Source: Desulfamplus magnetovallimortis (GTDB taxonomy: Bacteria; Desulfobacterota; Desulfobacteria; Desulfobacterales; Desulfobacteraceae). Taken from it: a DNA stretch of 34,741 nucleotides. The stretch is from NCBI RefSeq assembly GCF_900170035.1, contig NZ_LT828559.1:36531-71271 (forward strand), read 5' to 3'. Under the pieces are notes generated by a model, which was not told the DNA's origin, ran no database searches, and was given only the letters and a program-made list of their open reading frames with translations. The translations under genes and the position numbers were made by a program. Shown piece by piece: positions 435 through 16,952 of the stretch (positions within the stretch are counted from its first letter, which is position 1; every line of letters starts with the position of its first letter).

Positions 435-1970
435 ATGAGAAAATTTAAACCCATTGCCGTGTTTGGTACAGGCTCGGATGTAGGAAAAAGCATTGTCGGG
501 GCTGCAATCTGTAAATCCCTTGCTGATAGAGGGGTCGCGGTGGCTCCCTTTAAAGCCCAGAATATGTCCAACAACTCAGGTATCACCCCTGAAGGTCTTG
601 AGATGGGGCGTGCTCAGATTGTACAGGCCGAGGCAGCAGGTGTTGTTCCCCATGTGGATATGAACCCTGTACTGCTTAAACCAACCGGTGAGAAGGGTTC
701 CCAGGTGGTTCTTAACGGAGTTGCAGTTGAAAACAGCACTGCAATGGAGTATCACAGTAAAAAAGAATTCTATTTCAATGAGGCATGTAGGGCATTTGAT
801 CGCCTTCGGGACAGATACGAAATGATAGTCATGGAGGGGGCAGGTTCCTGCGCCGAGGTTAACCTGATGCCTTCAGATATTGTCAATTTCCGGATGGCAG
901 ATTATGCAGGTGCTGATGTGATTCTAGTGGCTGATATTCATCGTGGCGGGGTTTTTGGTCAATTGGTGGGGACACTTGAATGTTTGCCGGACAGGTACAG
1001 AGATATGATTAAAGGTTTTATCATCAACCGGTTTCGGGGTGATATCAAGCTTTTCAGAGAGGGAGTTGAGTGGATAGAGAAGAGAACCGGCAAAAAAGTG
1101 ATGGGAGTACTTCCCTGGTATCATCATTTCAGAATTGATGCTGAAGACTCTGTTGAGCTTGAGGTTTTGTCTTCTGTCTCATCTCTTGAAAAAAACAAAC
1201 CTGCCATTGCAGTAATAAAGCTTAAACATATTTCTAATTTTACAGATTTTCATGCACTCGCAGATACACCCGGGCTTCAGGTGATTTTTCTTGAAAAGCC
1301 CGTTGAGCTTGATAGGTTCAAGGCTGTTATAATCCCGGGTTCAAAGAATACAAGATCAGATCTGCAATGGCTGAAACAAACCGGCTGGGATCAGAAAATT
1401 AAATCTTTTGCAGCATCTGGAGGGCATATTCTGGGGATATGCGGAGGTTATCAGATTCTGGGCAAACATGTGGATGACCCAAACGGCCTTGAAGGTAATC
1501 CCGGTATAACAGATGGACTTGATCTTCTTCCGGTAAATACCATTTTGAAGGCACCCAAGATCACAACATTAAGTACTTTTATATGGTATGATTTTACCAG
1601 AGATTTTCTCGATATTGGTGAGGGGTATGAAATCCATATGGGCCATACCACTCGTTTTGCTGGCTCTCCCATGTTCAAGGTTCATTCCAGAAACAGCATG
1701 GTATGCCATGATGAGGATGGGACTGTTTCACGTGAAAAAAATATATGCGGAACATATATGCACGGTTTGTTTGATGTTCCAGTCATTAAAAACAGGTGGC
1801 TTGAACAGGCAGGAATTGATATGGAACAGCATCTCTATGATAACAGAGCGTCCTCATATGAGCCGGATGGTATTGCCAGAAAAAAGAGAGATTATCAGCT
1901 TTTGAAAGAGCATTTTGAAAGTCATGTAGAACTTGACATTGTTTTTCCGGCACTAAGCCGACAGCTATGA
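435..1970 (+). CDS. cobQ: Cobyric acid synthase CobQ
   Basis: ATP- and glutamine-dependent amidation of cobyrinic acid a,c-diamide (carboxamides b, d, e, g) to cobyric acid, in cytosolic adenosylcobalamin synthesis. The 511 aa match the usual family length. The N-terminal dethiobiotin-synthetase-like P-loop domain has GTGSDVGKS near residue 11, then FKAQNMSNNS. The C-terminal class I glutamine amidotransferase domain has the nucleophile Cys336 in GICGGYQILG and His401/404 in EIHMGHT. The ATG at 435 follows AGGAG at a 12-nt spacing. The last five codons and the TGA appear to lie inside the left end of a decayed 174-bp mobile element (1953 onward), so the native C-terminus may have been replaced by a few residues. 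cobU follows after a repeat-filled gap. Confidence 0.95.
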   Translation: MRKFKPIAVFGTGSDVGKSIVGAAICKSLADRGVAVAPFKAQNMSNNSGITPEGLEMGRAQIVQAEAAGVVPHVDMNPVLLKPTGEKGSQVVLNGVAVENSTAMEYHSKKEFYFNEACRAFDRLRDRYEMIVMEGAGSCAEVNLMPSDIVNFRMADYAGADVILVADIHRGGVFGQLVGTLECLPDRYRDMIKGFIINRFRGDIKLFREGVEWIEKRTGKKVMGVLPWYHHFRIDAEDSVELEVLSSVSSLEKNKPAIAVIKLKHISNFTDFHALADTPGLQVIFLEKPVELDRFKAVIIPGSKNTRSDLQWLKQTGWDQKIKSFAASGGHILGICGGYQILGKHVDDPNGLEGNPGITDGLDLLPVNTILKAPKITTLSTFIWYDFTRDFLDIGEGYEIHMGHTTRFAGSPMFKVHSRNSMVCHDEDGTVSREKNICGTYMHGLFDVPVIKNRWLEQAGIDMEQHLYDNRASSYEPDGIARKKRDYQLLKEHFESHVELDIVFPALSRQL

Positions 1971-2387: not shown

Positions 2388-3008
2388 TTGAATAAAAATA
2401 CAAATATCAACAGGATCACCCTTGTGATTGGAGGATGCAGAAGCGGAAAAAGCAATCATGCTCTTTTCCTTGCCAATAAGGCTGTCTCTGTAGAAAAATC
2501 ATGTGCGGACTCACAAATAGAGGCGTATGATAATGCTGAATCTGATTTAAATGATAAATACGGGCATAAGAACATCAGAAAAATTTTTATGGCAACATCG
2601 GTTCCCACTGATAAAGAGATGGAAAAACGGGTTAACAAGCATCAGAAAGAGCGGGGTGAAGATTGGTGTACTGCCGAAGTGCCCATTGAACTGCCATTGG
2701 AGATTAAGCGTGCTTCTGCTGATGTTATTATTGTGGACTGTCTGACACTTTGGGTTTCAAATCTTTTGTTTAATGGATTTGGTGAGGAGGGGATTTTTTC
2801 CAAAACCATGGAACTTCAAATGGCTCTTAAAGATCTCTCTTCTTCCGTTTTTCTGGTAACTAACGAAGTTGGTATGGGTATTGTTCCTGAAAATGCCATA
2901 GCCAGGGAATTCAGGGATATGGCTGGCTATGTCAATCAAAAGATTGCCGAGACTGCGGATGAAGTGGTTTATATGGTGGCAGGTATTCCGTGGAAGATAA
3001 AGCAGTAG
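2388..3008 (+). CDS. cobU: Adenosylcobinamide kinase / adenosylcobinamide-phosphate guanylyltransferase CobU
   Basis: Phosphorylates adenosylcobinamide and then transfers GMP to give AdoCbi-GDP, the substrate for attaching the nucleotide loop and lower ligand. The 206 aa are slightly longer than the roughly 180-aa family norm because of an insertion around residues 35-65. The P-loop GGCRSGKSNHA lies near residue 14. VDCLTLWVSNLL and NEVGMGIVPENAIAREFRDMAG-type signatures lie in the second half. The start is TTG at 2388 with CGGAG at 2371-2375, 12 nt upstream; no better in-frame start precedes the P-loop. A 98-bp family C repeat begins right after the stop codon. Together with cobQ and the B12-controlled bzaF candidate it marks a corrinoid assembly region. 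Confidence 0.93.
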   Translation: MNKNTNINRITLVIGGCRSGKSNHALFLANKAVSVEKSCADSQIEAYDNAESDLNDKYGHKNIRKIFMATSVPTDKEMEKRVNKHQKERGEDWCTAEVPIELPLEIKRASADVIIVDCLTLWVSNLLFNGFGEEGIFSKTMELQMALKDLSSSVFLVTNEVGMGIVPENAIAREFRDMAGYVNQKIAETADEVVYMVAGIPWKIKQ

Positions 3009-3133: not shown

Positions 3134-4546
3134 ATGATCTCAAAATTATTAAAAAAAGAAATAATCGAATCCATATATGAATCTGCCACAGATATCTTAT
3201 CAACCACAGGCATTGAATTTGATATGGAGAGCGCAAGAGAACTTTTTAAAAAAAATGGTGCCGGAATTGATGGTAAAAAAGTCTATATTTCCCCTTTTCT
3301 TCTGGAGAAGAGTTTGGGGTTGATGCCTCAGTATATCCATGAATCAACTGATAATAAAAAGGTGGTTGCAGGCTCACCCTTTTCAAATTCACCCATGGTT
3401 TTAGATGACCGGACAGGAGATGTCAGAAATGGTACTGTTGAAGATGCTGTCAAAATGTATCAACTTGCAGAGACTTCAGAACTTTATGAATCTGTAAATC
3501 CCGGAATTGTGGATCCCGAAGGAAATGACAGTGAGGATAAATTCATTGCTCAAATCGCCATGCTATTGAAATATTCCGACAAATTCCCAAGTCTGGGATT
3601 GCGAGCAACTCCATCTAATACAAAAAATGGTAATGTTTATGCAAGTGCCAGAAAAGCGATAGAGTTGATAAAGGAGATCAAAGAAGAGGATAAAAAAGCG
3701 GTTATGGGACAAGGGATCTGTCCAATGGCACCTTTATCCTATGATGAAGAGAGCTTGATCAATTTAACCGTTCTTGCCGAGGAGAATCAGGATATTACAA
3801 TTTCTCCATGTACTTTGTCATTCATGACAGGTCCGGAAAGCCTTATGGGAATCGTCATTCATGATGTTGCCATTTGTCTTGCAGGGGCTGTATATCTTCA
3901 GCTTCTGAAGCCCGAGACAAGCGTGGCCTTCACAAATTTCTCCACAATGACGGATATGAGAACCATGCAGCCGGTATATGCAAGTCCGGAGTACCTACAT
4001 GTCCAAATAATGTTCTATGAGGTTTGTCAATATTTCGGGATGAATAGTGTGCTTTGTGGATGCCTTGCTGATGCAGCCAGAAATGATTATCAGGCAGGCT
4101 TTGAGTCCTGTCTTACGACAATTGCCCCTTTTTTCATGACAGATGTTGATAGACTCTGGTGTTATCCTGGGCATATGGCGGCATTTTCCGGTGGAAGTTT
4201 TGATAAAATGATATTTGATGAGGAGTTGCTGATAAATTGCAATCGGGTTCTTCAGGGCATGAATCTTTCCATTGATCCTCTGCTTAAAGAGAAACTTGAA
4301 AAAGCCCATGAAACAAAAAGTTTTCTTACAATTGGGGATGTCAATATTTATAGAAAAGAACAGAGAATAAGTAAAATTTTTGATAAAAGGGGGCTTAACT
4401 CCAACAGCTCTTCACTGGAAAGTCCCATCCATCTCAATGCCAGAAAAGAAATAGATAGGCGGTGCGCTGAGTATATCTTGCCGGAACGGAGCAAAAGACA
4501 AAAGGCTTTGCTTCAAAAATATTTGCCATCTCAATGTAAATATTAA
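3134..4546 (+). CDS. MttB-family (trimethylamine methyltransferase-like) corrinoid methyltransferase, non-pyrrolysine type
   Basis: Expected to move a methyl group from a quaternary or tertiary amine to a cognate corrinoid protein. The 470 aa are close to the length of non-pyrrolysine MttB homologues such as MtgB (glycine betaine). The N-terminal half has the family pattern of a helical lead-in (AREL...GAGIDGKKVYISP), then PMVLDDRTGDVRNGT. The barrel segments include GQGICPMAPLSYDEESL, SPCTLSFMTGPESLMG and LCGCLADAARNDYQAG. No internal TAG interrupts the frame, so pyrrolysine is not expected and trimethylamine itself is an unlikely substrate. ATG at 3134 follows AAGGAG at a short, good spacing. 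No MtgC/MttC-type corrinoid protein or MtgA/RamA homologue lies next to it, so its partner must be elsewhere. Substrate unknown. Confidence 0.85.
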   Translation: MISKLLKKEIIESIYESATDILSTTGIEFDMESARELFKKNGAGIDGKKVYISPFLLEKSLGLMPQYIHESTDNKKVVAGSPFSNSPMVLDDRTGDVRNGTVEDAVKMYQLAETSELYESVNPGIVDPEGNDSEDKFIAQIAMLLKYSDKFPSLGLRATPSNTKNGNVYASARKAIELIKEIKEEDKKAVMGQGICPMAPLSYDEESLINLTVLAEENQDITISPCTLSFMTGPESLMGIVIHDVAICLAGAVYLQLLKPETSVAFTNFSTMTDMRTMQPVYASPEYLHVQIMFYEVCQYFGMNSVLCGCLADAARNDYQAGFESCLTTIAPFFMTDVDRLWCYPGHMAAFSGGSFDKMIFDEELLINCNRVLQGMNLSIDPLLKEKLEKAHETKSFLTIGDVNIYRKEQRISKIFDKRGLNSNSSSLESPIHLNARKEIDRRCAEYILPERSKRQKALLQKYLPSQCKY

Positions 4547-4616
4547 CAAAAATTTGGCTTCCACTGCATCATTATGGAAAAAATTTATACTTTTTTAGGC
4601 ATCTTTCATTTCTCGG

Positions 4617-4728
4617 TTTACACTTTTTTTGAACCATGATTTTCATGATTAAGGGATTACCTTGATTTTTAATCGTGTTAATCCTTAAATCCTTTAATCA
4701 TGGTTCAGAATTTTTCTAAAAGTGTAAA
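4617..4728. repeat. 112-bp palindrome ending TTTACACTTTT / AAAAGTGTAAA
   Basis: The outer arms are TTTACACTTTT (4617) and AAAAGTGTAAA (to 4728). Inside, TGAACCATGATT faces AATCATGGTTCA, with ATTAAGGGATTA facing TAATCCTTAAAT near the centre. It is a long, nearly complete inverted repeat with a MITE-like form, between the convergent MttB-like gene and bzaF. Only one full copy is in the window. Confidence 0.65.
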
Positions 4729-4935
4729 CTAATTTTGATTTGATATGAAGGATGTCCTTTTTTAGTGGAAAATTATGCGAAAGATTGGCATCTATTAAAG
4801 GCATGGTTCATACATAATCATTTTACACTTTCTGAAATAACACTACGTTTTCAGGGTGTTCCCCCCAAAAAAGTATAAAGTACTTTTGTGGGGATATGAA
4901 GTATGCCCTATTAAAGCTGAAAATAAGGATGCAAC

Positions 4936-4960
4936 AGAGGCAAGGCATGCCTTGTCTCTA
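4936..4960. repeat. Short hairpin, AGAGGCAAGGCATGCCTTGTCTCT
   Basis: Self-complementary around GCATGC. A related hairpin lies at 7038-7067 (GTAGAGAAACAAGGC facing GCCTTGTCTCTAC). The two share the following context (a T-run, then AACTCTGGAACCC or TCTCAGAACCC), so they look like copies of one small repeat. Confidence 0.55.
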
Positions 4961-5035
4961 CTGTATTTTTATCGAACTCTGGAACCCCCCAACTGATGCG
5001 CATTTCCACATTTTCTTCATCAAGATCAATAATTA

Positions 5036-5209
5036 CTCAAAGTTGACACATATGATGTTGTAAGTTTTGTCAATACTGTCTGAATCAGGATTCCCAAGAT
5101 TAACAAGATAAGGCAAGATTATATATCCTGAGCATCCTATCCATCCTGGTTATCCTGGTTCAGACAACTGCAATAACTTCTGAACAAGCAATAAGATGTC
5201 GATTTTGAG
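5036..5209 (+). mobile_element. MITE-like 174-bp element (family B full copy 1)
   Basis: The left TIR CTCAAAGTTGACA at 5036 and right TIR TGTCGATTTTGAG ending at 5209 are inverted repeats (11 of 13). The flanking 6-bp sequences are identical: TAATTA at 5030-5035 and 5210-5215. The centre carries the CAGGAT palindrome (about 5080-5166). It is non-coding. The right target duplication contains the stop codon of the minus-strand bzaF gene. Confidence 0.85.
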
Positions 5210-5212
5210 TAA

Positions 5213-6535
5213 TTATATTATTGCCTTGTCATATTTTATATCCCTGCTGAAAACCTCCATACCTTTTTTCATGGCACAAAAGTCTCCGCACATGGTGCAG
5301 GTTTTCTCTTCCCTTGGAGAACGTTCGGCACGCATCTGTCTTGCTATTTCAGGAAACATTAGATATTTCCCAAGATCTTCCCATCTCATGTCCCGCCTTG
5401 CCATTGCTGCCAGTTTTTCATTTTCCCTTTTTTCAGGATACTTTGCAATATCACCAATGCGAACAGCAAGACGGGTTGCCCTTACACCCTCACGAACATC
5501 TTGTTCATTTGGCAGGGCAAGATGCTCGGCAGGGGTTATGTAGCATACAAGATCTGCACCATGCCATGAGGATGTTGCAGCACCAATTGCAGATGTTATG
5601 TGATCATAACCGGCTCCTGTATCAGCAGGAAGAGGCCCAAGCACATAATAGGGAGCGTTTCCGCTCATGCGTTTTTCAAGCATTATGTTTCCTTGGATCT
5701 CGTCCATTGGAACATGCCCAGGGCCTTCCACCATCATCTGGCATCCCATCTCACGTCCAAGCTCTGCAAGCTCACAGTTTATTATCATTTCTGCCATCTG
5801 TGCCCTGTCATGGCTGTCATGTATGGCACCTGCCCTGATGCCGTTTCCAAGGGAGAGAACAGCATCATATTTTTTCATGATGGAACATACACGGTCAAAC
5901 TGCTCGTAAAGGGGGTTTTCCTTTCCTGTGGCATCCATCCAGGCAACCATGAACGTTCCCCCCTTGGAAGCAAGTCCGCCATAACGGAATCCCTGTTTTC
6001 TGAGTCGTTCAATGGTGTATTGATTAATTCCGCAATGTATGGCCATGAAGCTCAGGCCATCCTCAAGCTGTTTTTCAATCAGTTCAAAAAGATATTCAGG
6101 ATCAAGTTTTGCAGGATTATGATATTTGCGGCCAGTCTCCTTGAACGCCTGATAGAGTGGAACATTTCCCACAGGCAGGCTAACAGCTTTTAGCACTTCA
6201 CGGCGTATGGCATCCATGTCACCGTCTGCTGAAAGTTCCATCAGGGTGTCGGCTCCCTCCTCCTGGGCTGCGATGGCTTTTCTCACCTCTGCATCAATAC
6301 TGCAAATATCTGAAGATGTGCCAATGGATACATTGACTTTGGTTCTCAAACCTTTTCCAATACCTACAGCTTTCTGGCTTTTTCTCAAGGGATTGTTGGG
6401 AATGACTATCTCGCCTTTGGCAATTCGTTGGCGGATAGTTTCTGACTCAACATTTTCATCCTGAGCAACCTGTTTCATCTGCTCTGTAATCACTCCTGCC
6501 CTGGCAAGTTCAAGCTGGGTTTTAATGCTTTTCAT
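5213..6535 (-). CDS. bzaF: ThiC paralogue, probable 5-hydroxybenzimidazole synthase BzaF
   Basis: A radical-SAM enzyme of the ThiC superfamily. BzaF converts aminoimidazole ribotide to 5-hydroxybenzimidazole, precursor of the B12 lower ligand in anaerobes. The fold is ThiC-like over its 440 aa: SIGTSSDIC near 70-78, MVEGPGHVPMDEI at 268-280, GADLVCYITPAEHLALP at 326-342, and a C-terminal cluster motif Cys413-x2-Cys416-x3-Cys420. It lacks the long N-terminal domain of E. coli-type ThiC. I place the start at ATG 6535, since AAGGA lies 8 nt upstream; an ATG at 6556 would span that RBS. The function is inferred mainly from regulation: the leader holds a cobalamin riboswitch plus terminator, not a TPP riboswitch, and cobQ and cobU are nearby. 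Thiamin-pathway ThiC remains the alternative. The stop codon lies within a MITE target duplication. Confidence 0.8.
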   Translation of the reverse strand: MKSIKTQLELARAGVITEQMKQVAQDENVESETIRQRIAKGEIVIPNNPLRKSQKAVGIGKGLRTKVNVSIGTSSDICSIDAEVRKAIAAQEEGADTLMELSADGDMDAIRREVLKAVSLPVGNVPLYQAFKETGRKYHNPAKLDPEYLFELIEKQLEDGLSFMAIHCGINQYTIERLRKQGFRYGGLASKGGTFMVAWMDATGKENPLYEQFDRVCSIMKKYDAVLSLGNGIRAGAIHDSHDRAQMAEMIINCELAELGREMGCQMMVEGPGHVPMDEIQGNIMLEKRMSGNAPYYVLGPLPADTGAGYDHITSAIGAATSSWHGADLVCYITPAEHLALPNEQDVREGVRATRLAVRIGDIAKYPEKRENEKLAAMARRDMRWEDLGKYLMFPEIARQMRAERSPREEKTCTMCGDFCAMKKGMEVFSRDIKYDKAII

Positions 6536-6697
6536 GGTTTTTGTCCTTTTTTGCATTCAATTAATTTTTGAATATATCTTCTGGCCTGAAATTATTCCTA
6601 AAGCATGTTACCGTGAAGCTGCATCTCTTCATTTCCATGTCAGAGCATGCAAGATATCGTTACATGAAGGTTTTGGATGTAAAAAGCCATGTTCCGG

Positions 6698-6741
6698 ACA
6701 AAAAAAATCCCGGAACCGACATATTCTGTCAGCCCGGGATT
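6698..6741 (-). terminator. Intrinsic terminator in the bzaF leader, downstream of the riboswitch
   Basis: On the minus strand AATCCCGG pairs with CCGGGATT, an inner GACA/TGTC pair extends the hairpin, and a run of eight T follows. It lies between the cobalamin aptamer and the bzaF start, as expected for B12-induced premature termination. Confidence 0.85.
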
Positions 6742-6776
6742 TACCATCTCGCCTGGGTACAAACTTTTAACCTGGC

Positions 6777-6954
6777 AGGTCTTCTGACTCACGGATCATC
6801 CTTGCTCCTGCGTCTTCCCACAAAGCTTAAAAAAACTCTTTGCAGTGACATTTATGCAGGAGCTCGTCCCCGTTTACAGCGGCGGGACCGTTCCGGTTTT
6901 TCACCGGATTCCCATTTTAAGGCAATATATAACGTGCTGTTATTTAAAGGTTAA
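6777..6954 (-). promoter_or_regulatory. Cobalamin (adenosylcobalamin) riboswitch
   Basis: Minus strand. It carries the B12-box-like AGTCAGAAGACCTGCCAG just before the 3' end. Conserved core pieces are CCGGTGAAAAACCGG, ACGGTCCCGCCGCTGTAA and GGGAAGACGCAGGAGCAAGGATGA. The closing P1 helix is TTAACCT (6954-6948) with AGGTTAA (6783-6777). A terminator follows 36 nt downstream, so it should switch transcription of bzaF off when B12 is plentiful. Confidence 0.95.
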
Positions 6955-6980
6955 GCACCATTATCGCCACCTGGTCAAAA

Positions 6981-7011
6981 ATAGAAAAAACTTTGAATAG
7001 TGCTTTGTCAA
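6981..7011 (-). promoter_or_regulatory. Possible sigma70 promoter for riboswitch-bzaF
   Basis: Minus strand TTGACA (7011-7006) and TTCTAT (6986-6981) with a long 19-nt spacer, about 25 nt before the aptamer. The -35 is perfect; the -10 and spacing are weak. Confidence 0.35.
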
Positions 7012-7037
7012 AACTAATAATTAGGGTGCAATGAACT

Positions 7038-7067
7038 GTAGAGAAACAAGGCTTGCCTTGTCTCTAC
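7038..7067. repeat. Short hairpin related to 4936-4960
   Basis: GTAGAGAAACAAGGC faces GCCTTGTCTCTAC with almost no loop. It lies upstream of the bzaF promoter region; see the related hairpin at 4936. Confidence 0.5.
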
Positions 7068-7142
7068 CGGGTTTTCATCAGATGAATTTTATCTCAGAAC
7101 CCTAAAATTAAGTGCTGACAATTCAATAGGTTTTGTGAACCC

Positions 7143-7182
7143 CAAAAAAAACAAGGCTTCAAGAAAAATTCCTGAAGCCTTC
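7143..7182 (-). terminator. Terminator of tRNA-Pro
   Basis: On the minus strand AAGGCTTCA pairs with TGAAGCCTT around a short loop, followed by GTTTTTTTT. It starts about 10 nt after the tRNA CCA end. Confidence 0.9.
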
Positions 7183-7192
7183 TATTTTCTAA

Positions 7193-7269
7193 TGGTCGGG
7201 GCGAAGAGATTCGAACTCCCGACATCCTGCTCCCAAAGCAGGCGCGCTACCAGACTGCGCTACGCCCCG
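7193..7269 (-). tRNA. tRNA-Pro (anticodon TGG)
   Basis: 77 nt including encoded CCA. The acceptor stem CGGGGCG/CGCCCCG is perfect. The anticodon stem CCTGC/GCAGG encloses loop TTTGGGA (anticodon TGG, reads CCA and other Pro codons). The T-arm contains GGAGTTCGAATCTC. Confidence 0.98.
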
Positions 7270-7285
7270 ATAATTTATCAAAAAG

Positions 7286-7314
7286 CTTCTATCATCTTGT
7301 TTAATGAAAATCAA
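7286..7314 (-). promoter_or_regulatory. Possible promoter of tRNA-Pro
   Basis: Minus strand TTGATT (7314-7309), 17-nt spacer, TAGAAG (7291-7286); the tRNA begins 17 nt further on. Confidence 0.4.
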
Positions 7315-7338
7315 GGAAAATATCATTTTAGGAATTTT

Positions 7339-7425
7339 TTTATGTGAAAATCTCAGCAATGACTGCTTTTTAAAACGACTTTCATTCATTCGGTTGTGGC
7401 ATGTTGACCTGCCATGGGGGTTATA
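7339..7425 (+). repeat. REP-like family A copy
   Basis: TATGTGAAAATCTCAG...ACGACTTTCATTCATTCGGTTGTGGC...CCTGCCATG...GTTATA. Same layout as the units at 3-165. It begins inside the presumed upstream region of tRNA-Pro and reads towards tig. Confidence 0.7.
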
Positions 7426-15938: not shown

Positions 15939-16952
15939 TTAGATGTCAGGCATAAGAGCTGTGATAATTCCGGATTCCATAGGGCCTTTATAGGGGGTTC
16001 TTTCCATATTTACAAATCCGGCATCATCAAGCATATCCATGATTTCAACTTCTGAATATGATTGGCCTCCATCAGTGCCTACAAGCATATTCAATGAGAA
16101 AAGTGCAGGAAAAAGCGGTGCACTTCTTGAGTTGTTCAGAATAAAATCATGAATAATTATCATGCCTCCGGGATTCAGCACAGATGCTGCCTTTTTTATT
16201 AGTTTATGGCAATCTTCAGGTGTTTCTGCGTGCAGGATGTGGGATATCCATACCACATCAAAGCTTGCTTTTATTTCATCCACAAGAAAATTACCACCCT
16301 GAAATGTTATTCTATCCTGCTGGTTAAATCTTGCAATGGTTTTTTCAGCAAATGGCCTTGTTGTAGGCAGATCAAAAACAGTTGCTTTAATATCCTTGTT
16401 ATGAAGACAGAACTGAATTGCATAGGTTCCAGGGCCGCCTCCAAGATCAAGAAGGGTCTTTCTCCCTGAAATATCTATTGTGGGCACAAGTCCCGGAGCT
16501 GTTGCCATGGCAATATTGAACATTCCCATGAGAAAACTTTCTCTTTTTGCATCATCACTGAATGTTGCCCTTGATCTTACCGGTTTTCCACTCATGACAG
16601 ATTCATCAAGACGGGACCATGATTCCACAAGATGGTGATGATGCATTATCATAAAACCGATGTATTTAGGAGAAGATTTTGACAGAAAAGTGGATGAAAC
16701 AATGGAGTTGGAATACAAGTCTCCAGTTTTTTCAAGAAGCTCCATGGCACAAAGAGCATCCAGAAGCATGGCAAGGCTTCTTTCCGGTGCCTTCATCTGT
16801 GCCGCAACATCATGGGCTGATAATTTTTTTTCTCCAATAACAGTAAAAACATCAAGTTTCACTCCTGCATGAAGGGTACAGGTGTTCCAGTAGGAACCTG
16901 AAAGTTGAAGCAGCTTTCCAGGATTGAGTTCATTATTGACTGTCGTGGTCAT
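15939..16952 (-). CDS. SAM-dependent O-methyltransferase (PF00891-like)
   Basis: A class I methyltransferase with the hydroxyindole/plant O-methyltransferase layout in 337 aa. An N-terminal winged-helix dimerisation domain lies at about 10-95 (LSGSYWNTCTLHAGVKLDVF, then a helix-turn-helix-like segment). The SAM motif I LDLGGGPGTYAIQF is near 166-180, and VWISHILHAETPEDC and GGMIIIHDF follow. ATG 16952 has AGGAGG about 5 nt upstream. The substrate is not readable from sequence. BzaC, which O-methylates 5-hydroxybenzimidazole in the anaerobic B12-ligand pathway, belongs to a similar class. With a bzaF candidate 9 kb away this is a possibility, but there is no riboswitch or direct linkage to support it. 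Confidence 0.85.
   Translation of the reverse strand: MTTTVNNELNPGKLLQLSGSYWNTCTLHAGVKLDVFTVIGEKKLSAHDVAAQMKAPERSLAMLLDALCAMELLEKTGDLYSNSIVSSTFLSKSSPKYIGFMIMHHHHLVESWSRLDESVMSGKPVRSRATFSDDAKRESFLMGMFNIAMATAPGLVPTIDISGRKTLLDLGGGPGTYAIQFCLHNKDIKATVFDLPTTRPFAEKTIARFNQQDRITFQGGNFLVDEIKASFDVVWISHILHAETPEDCHKLIKKAASVLNPGGMIIIHDFILNNSRSAPLFPALFSLNMLVGTDGGQSYSEVEIMDMLDDAGFVNMERTPYKGPMESGIITALMPDI

Follow-up and report, generated by a model that had tools for sequence, protein, structure and literature searches.

A probable orphan bzaF gene under its own cobalamin riboswitch in Desulfamplus magnetovallimortis

Does the only ThiC-superfamily gene of the sulfate-reducing bacterium Desulfamplus magnetovallimortis serve thiamin synthesis or the synthesis of a cobamide lower ligand? 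It lies in a 34,741-nucleotide stretch of contig NZ_LT828559.1 (positions 36,531–71,271; hereafter the window, to which coordinates refer unless a contig or locus is named), behind a cobalamin riboswitch and a hairpin–T8 terminator. A first-pass annotation, made from the letters alone, had taken it for bzaF, and our analysis supports that reading: very probably the gene is bzaF, its product making 5-hydroxybenzimidazole from 5-aminoimidazole ribotide (AIR) for the organism's own cobamide, with transcription stopped by the cobamide-bound leader and thiamin imported. The gene itself is of a known kind; the new part is probably the setting, in which a likely thiamin auxotroph has an orphan bzaF behind a switch of its own. 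A literature search, with most subscription journals outside its reach, found nothing on bzaF in Desulfamplus. The name matters, because NCBIfam cut-offs would call this gene ThiC: the organism would then be assigned a thiamin synthesis that it probably does not have, and its own production of a benzimidazole cobamide would presumably go unnoticed.

A ThiC-superfamily protein in the BzaF-like clade

The open frame 5213–6556 (minus strand, 447 residues) matches Pfam ThiC_Rad_SAM at 580.7 bits. Its second ATG is the likelier start, giving a 440-residue product, because a putative ribosome-binding site, AAAGGA, ends 8 nucleotides before it. Among 78 genomes surveyed in relatives (our own counted), 56 have superfamily matches, many of them two. 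Searching 394 genomes of the phylum with the window protein (E ≤ 1e-130, weaker matches being cut off) gave matches in 90, of which 85 are at least 60% identical to it (one of these is partial, and our own genome is among them) and 5 are 46–50% identical. No identity to the window protein lies between about 50 and 60%, and BzaF-like proteins were sorted from ThiC-type ones by this value (at least 58%, a cut that we set) together with trees. Our careful tree of 66 selected rows splits 37 BzaF-like from 29 ThiC-type proteins at 100/100 support, with one change, and a quick tree of 134 rows returns the identical split (92 versus 42, support 100). In the careful tree the window protein falls in the BzaF-like clade, apart from thiamin ThiC, which is where the first-pass reading would put it. 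The nearest named records are metagenome-assembled genomes of Desulfamplus. Pfam score alone was rejected as a sorter of the two groups, whose scores overlap: four ThiC-type genes (G057, G061, G070 and G076) score in the BzaF range (562–597 bits).

One published account restricts bzaF to Geobacteraceae and a single order (PMC7726332). We find bzaF-like genes across Desulfobacterota and in three contigs titled Lentisphaerota. These last (L128, L139 and L152, titled Lentisphaeria, Victivallaceae and Victivallales) may reflect transfer or misbinning; L128 and L139 have a cobalamin riboswitch immediately before the gene, L152 none.

A two-residue active-site signature

We compared 112 deduplicated BzaF-like proteins with 63 ThiC-type proteins, shorter frames being dropped, and 23 positions separate the groups under the thresholds chosen. 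The position of window Ser77 is Ser in 112/112 BzaF-like proteins and Asn in 63/63 ThiC-type proteins; that of Asn238 is Asn in all 112 and Asp in all 63. These correspond to Asn228 and Asp383 of the plant protein AtThiC, a numbering transferred through a Caulobacter alignment and the 9-residue offset between the Caulobacter and plant proteins. In plant ThiC, Asn228 holds a ribose hydroxyl and Asp383 the imidazole N3 (PMC4389238); AtThiC N228D makes no hydroxymethylpyrimidine phosphate and D383N keeps part of the activity (PMC11117688). The window protein lacks both substrate contacts of the ThiC type. It shares with ThiC the superfamily, the C-terminal cluster motif and an alignment over most of its length, but differs in having only about 38–50% identity, Ser and Asn at the two contact positions and a cobalamin rather than a thiamin pyrophosphate (TPP) riboswitch. 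Residue pair (Ser/Asn versus Asn/Asp) and riboswitch type together offer a simple rule for sorting bzaF from thiC.

The cluster motif was discarded as a BzaF marker, CX2CX3C being present in 112/112 BzaF-like and 62/63 ThiC-type proteins. In the ThiC-type gene of locus L046 (genome G033, minus strand) the motif reads CTMCGDFY, the third Cys being replaced by Tyr; G033 also has bzaF, and its ThiC may be decaying.

A cobalamin riboswitch and terminator ahead of the gene

The leader contains a full-length match to the cobalamin riboswitch family RF00174 (model positions 1–189, E 5.2e-28), scoring 113.7 bits where the gathering score is 31.5. Between it and the gene, the sequence 6773–6680 folds at −35.6 kcal/mol (z −3.96, equalled by 1 of 200 shuffles), and the hairpin–T8 is among nine terminator-like sites that a consensus scan found in 4500–7400, where 2.4 were expected. 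All the elements named by the first-pass annotation (B12 riboswitch, hairpin with T8, ThiC-superfamily gene, and cobQ and cobU nearby) are thus borne out by profiles, fold or scan, the riboswitch reaching 35 nucleotides past position 6954, where that annotation had stopped. A search of the leader for an antiterminator showed the terminator arm pairing with the aptamer over 6 base pairs at most.

Among nearer relatives the riboswitch is conserved. A covariance model trained on 14 aptamers, among them that of the window, placed a cobalamin riboswitch directly upstream, on the same strand, of 85 of 91 unique genes from nearer relatives (29/30 from relatives' genomes and 56/61 from titled contigs, 19 duplicates having been dropped). 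Of the six misses, two offer fewer than 90 nucleotides of upstream sequence, two carry a riboswitch some 2.4 kb away on the upstream side and two lack one. The same model gave a single match in 57 ThiC-type loci, on the strand opposite the gene, and an Rfam scan of 40 ThiC-type loci put a TPP riboswitch in front of ThiC in 9. Inspection of 15 relatives' leaders showed the order riboswitch, hairpin, gene, with the hairpin before the start codon; as exceptions, the T run is missing in L037 and the hairpin of L044 is poor.

From the families to which gene and leader belong follow the chemistry and the switching direction that we propose. BzaF, a radical S-adenosylmethionine enzyme of the ThiC superfamily, would convert AIR to 5-hydroxybenzimidazole; CobT would activate this as the lower ligand, and the base would join the corrinoid. 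When adenosylcobamide is plentiful it would bind the leader RNA and transcription would end at the hairpin–T8; when it is scarce, transcription would continue into bzaF. The organism would import its thiamin and do without ThiC.

As side observations, thiC and bzaF lie about 5–7 kb apart in L038 (G039), L044 (G018) and L046 (G033), with both a TPP and a cobalamin riboswitch in the latter two. Three further cobalamin riboswitches occur in the D. magnetovallimortis genome (C1:217509–217700, minus; C2:188919–189104, plus; C20:25943–26153, plus); as read from the open frames, what follows them is a TonB-receptor-like region, a cobaltochelatase-like gene and, leading towards cobQ of the window, a permease/cbi run.

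Gene order and a probable link to tested BzaF

In Geobacter sulfurreducens GSU3010 is CobU and GSU3005 is BzaF, which makes 5-hydroxybenzimidazole, the base carried by that organism's cobamide (PMC7726332). Geotalea daltonii Geob_0538–0543 has the order cobU-cobT-cobS-cobC-cbiA-bzaF (PMC13119186). We therefore looked at gene order in a wider-phylum set of 20 loci of our choosing, counting neighbours from tblastn positions, as open-frame counts missed genes in GC-rich loci. Nine of the 20 have the order cobU-cobT-cobS-cobB-bzaF, which agrees with GSU3010/GSU3005 and matches the Geotalea run with cobB standing where Geotalea has cbiA; cobT lies within 6 kb upstream in 12 and cobB in 10. All 20 genomes have a second ThiC-superfamily gene, scoring in the ThiC range (634–669 bits) in 19; that of G330, at 559 bits, was left unclassed. 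Among the nearer relatives cobT stands immediately downstream of bzaF in 61 of 91.

GSU3005 and Geob_0543 probably share with the window protein a clade (judged through tree and gene order), cobalamin riboswitch control and the two signature residues. Unlike the Geotalea gene inside its cob run, however, the window bzaF is a solitary gene with a riboswitch and terminator of its own, its cobT is on another contig and no ThiC was found in its genome. It differs too from BzaA and BzaB of Moorella and Eubacterium, two proteins that carry out the reaction predicted here for one (PMC8123684): the window locus has a single gene, under the BzaB cut-off.

Predicted lower ligand

The genome encodes CobT on contig C14 (432.3 bits against a cut-off of 319.3), and four matches for BluB, the other route considered, reach 43.6 bits at best against a cut-off of 150. 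A second CobT lies in a 727-residue frame (L162:5980–8163, minus strand, contig C7) whose N-terminal half resembles an alcohol dehydrogenase (ADH_N, 55.7 bits) and is followed by a complete CobT (DBI_PRT, 415 bits).

Of the 61 unique titled loci, 17 have a Methyltransf_2 gene downstream of bzaF (the 30 other nearer loci have none), mostly in the order bzaF-cobT-methyltransferase (L094, L096, L097, L099, L100, L101, L104, L110, L111, L117, L137 and others). By analogy with the Moorella order bzaA-bzaB-cobT-bzaC (PMC8123684), this gene may be a BzaC making 5-methoxybenzimidazole. Its best match in the D. magnetovallimortis genome is an O-methyltransferase-like gene at 15939–16952 (minus strand, 174.7 bits), which we do not count as BzaC: unrelated solved methyltransferases reach 127 bits against that profile, and only 16 of 27 invariant positions are kept, 11 being lost. 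Because no BzaC is supported, 5-hydroxybenzimidazole is the predicted ligand.

A different product has to be weighed. The title of a 1988 paper, a reference in PMC4303638, speaks of 5'-methylbenzimidazolyl-cobamides from some sulfate reducers. That the Desulfobacterota BzaF branch, alone or with an unrecognized partner, is the source of these cobamides, with the window gene as the minimal case, seems unlikely. The species of the 1988 report were reportedly Desulfobacterium autotrophicum and Desulfobulbus propionicus, and we know of no described pathway for 5-methylbenzimidazolyl cobamides. The narrower proposal, that this branch's enzyme makes another benzimidazole such as 5-methylbenzimidazole directly, fits with Desulfobacteraceae and Desulfobulbus records in the clade, yet the wider-phylum members carry both Ser and Asn (11/11 rows retained under those locus names), and the product of the Geobacter enzyme is 5-hydroxybenzimidazole (PMC7726332); we consider it distinctly improbable.

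Thiamin genes and the role of the sole superfamily member

The assembly is 97.3% complete in 108 contigs, and we found no other ThiC-superfamily gene in it. ThiE has no match in this genome, and ThiG no convincing one, the best being a 22.7-bit piece of a frame read as HisF; a ThiC accompanied by ThiE and ThiG is not what the genome presents. The second ThiC under a TPP riboswitch, for which the first-pass annotation had proposed to search, is absent here, and many relatives do have both genes. The one TPP riboswitch (65.6 bits) precedes three ATP-binding cassette transporter genes. The first product passes a thiamine substrate-binding subfamily cut-off (278.6 against 93.4) and misses the ThiB equivalog (119.1 against 317), and the permease and ATPase score below the thiamin cut-offs, so thiamin import is suggested mainly by the riboswitch and the first gene. 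Given clade, signature, cobalamin riboswitch, the ThiE and ThiG results and a TPP riboswitch before an importer-like operon, the genome's sole 'ThiC' is most likely BzaF, and the organism a probable thiamin auxotroph rather than the prototroph with a single ThiC that would have told against the first-pass reading. Cultured D. magnetovallimortis BW-1 is grown with added vitamins (PMC9534983).

Comparison of 52 genomes (at least 90% complete, at most 5% contamination, ours included; G002, G043 and G064 hold fragments that were not scored as ThiC) shows that ThiG accompanies ThiC and not BzaF: ThiG is present in 9 of the 10 that carry both BzaF and ThiC and in 14 of 21 with ThiC and no BzaF, and is missing from 5 of 6 with BzaF and no ThiC. 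These six, ours among them, might be taken for genomes in which a bifunctional enzyme makes both hydroxymethylpyrimidine (HMP) and benzimidazole after loss of ThiC, the more so as one (G036) retains ThiG. The other five are without it (G068, which also has a broken second copy, being uncertain), HMP would have no partner in a genome lacking ThiE, and the TPP riboswitch here precedes an importer; such bifunctionality is very improbable. A thiamin ThiC that merely sits under a cobalamin riboswitch would account for the passing of the NCBIfam ThiC cut-offs and for our finding no second superfamily member, but the fully supported clade split, the Ser/Asn signature, the ThiE and ThiG results and the presence of both genes in many relatives make it extremely improbable.

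Several observations nevertheless weigh against assignment to BzaF. The protein passes both NCBIfam ThiC equivalog cut-offs (570.5 against 410; 518.4 against 460) and misses that of BzaB (TIGR04386, 501.1 against 700). The tree rows included no named, biochemically tested BzaF, the link to one running through gene order and clade. Replacement of Asp383 by Asn does not by itself exclude ThiC activity, because D383N plant ThiC stayed partly active. In the wider-phylum loci a cobalamin riboswitch is directly upstream in only 3 of 20, elsewhere in the locus in 10 and absent from the fetched stretch in 7; cobT is not adjacent to bzaF at the window locus; and, at this level of completeness, a ThiC could lie in an assembly gap.

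Locus layout

Table 1. Features of the bzaF locus, in window coordinates
Feature	Position	Strand	Basis
Cobalamin riboswitch aptamer	6757..6989	−	RF00174 match; best of 4 in own-genome search
Intrinsic terminator: hairpin 6742–6705 and T8 6707–6700	6700..6742	−	Sequence, fold, consensus scan, layout in relatives
Probable ribosome-binding site AAAGGA	6544..6549	−	Sequence
Predicted bzaF, 440 aa from ATG 6535 (alternative ATG 6556, 447 aa)	5213..6535	−	Frame, profiles, tree
Codon of Ser77 (447-aa numbering), AtThiC Asn228 place	6326..6328	−	112 versus 63 proteins
Codon of Asn238 (447-aa numbering), AtThiC Asp383 place	5843..5845	−	112 versus 63 proteins
C-terminal cluster motif CTMCGDFC (CX2CX3C)	5276..5299	−	Protein comparison
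cobQ	435–1970	+	Profile match
cobU	2388–3008	+	Profile match

Both cobQ and cobU are on the strand opposite bzaF and are not part of its transcription unit. An MttB-family gene (3134–4546, plus strand; PF06253, 153.5 bits), which misses the pyrrolysine-type cut-off (130.7 against 525) and has no in-frame stop, lies between cobU and bzaF and converges on the latter.
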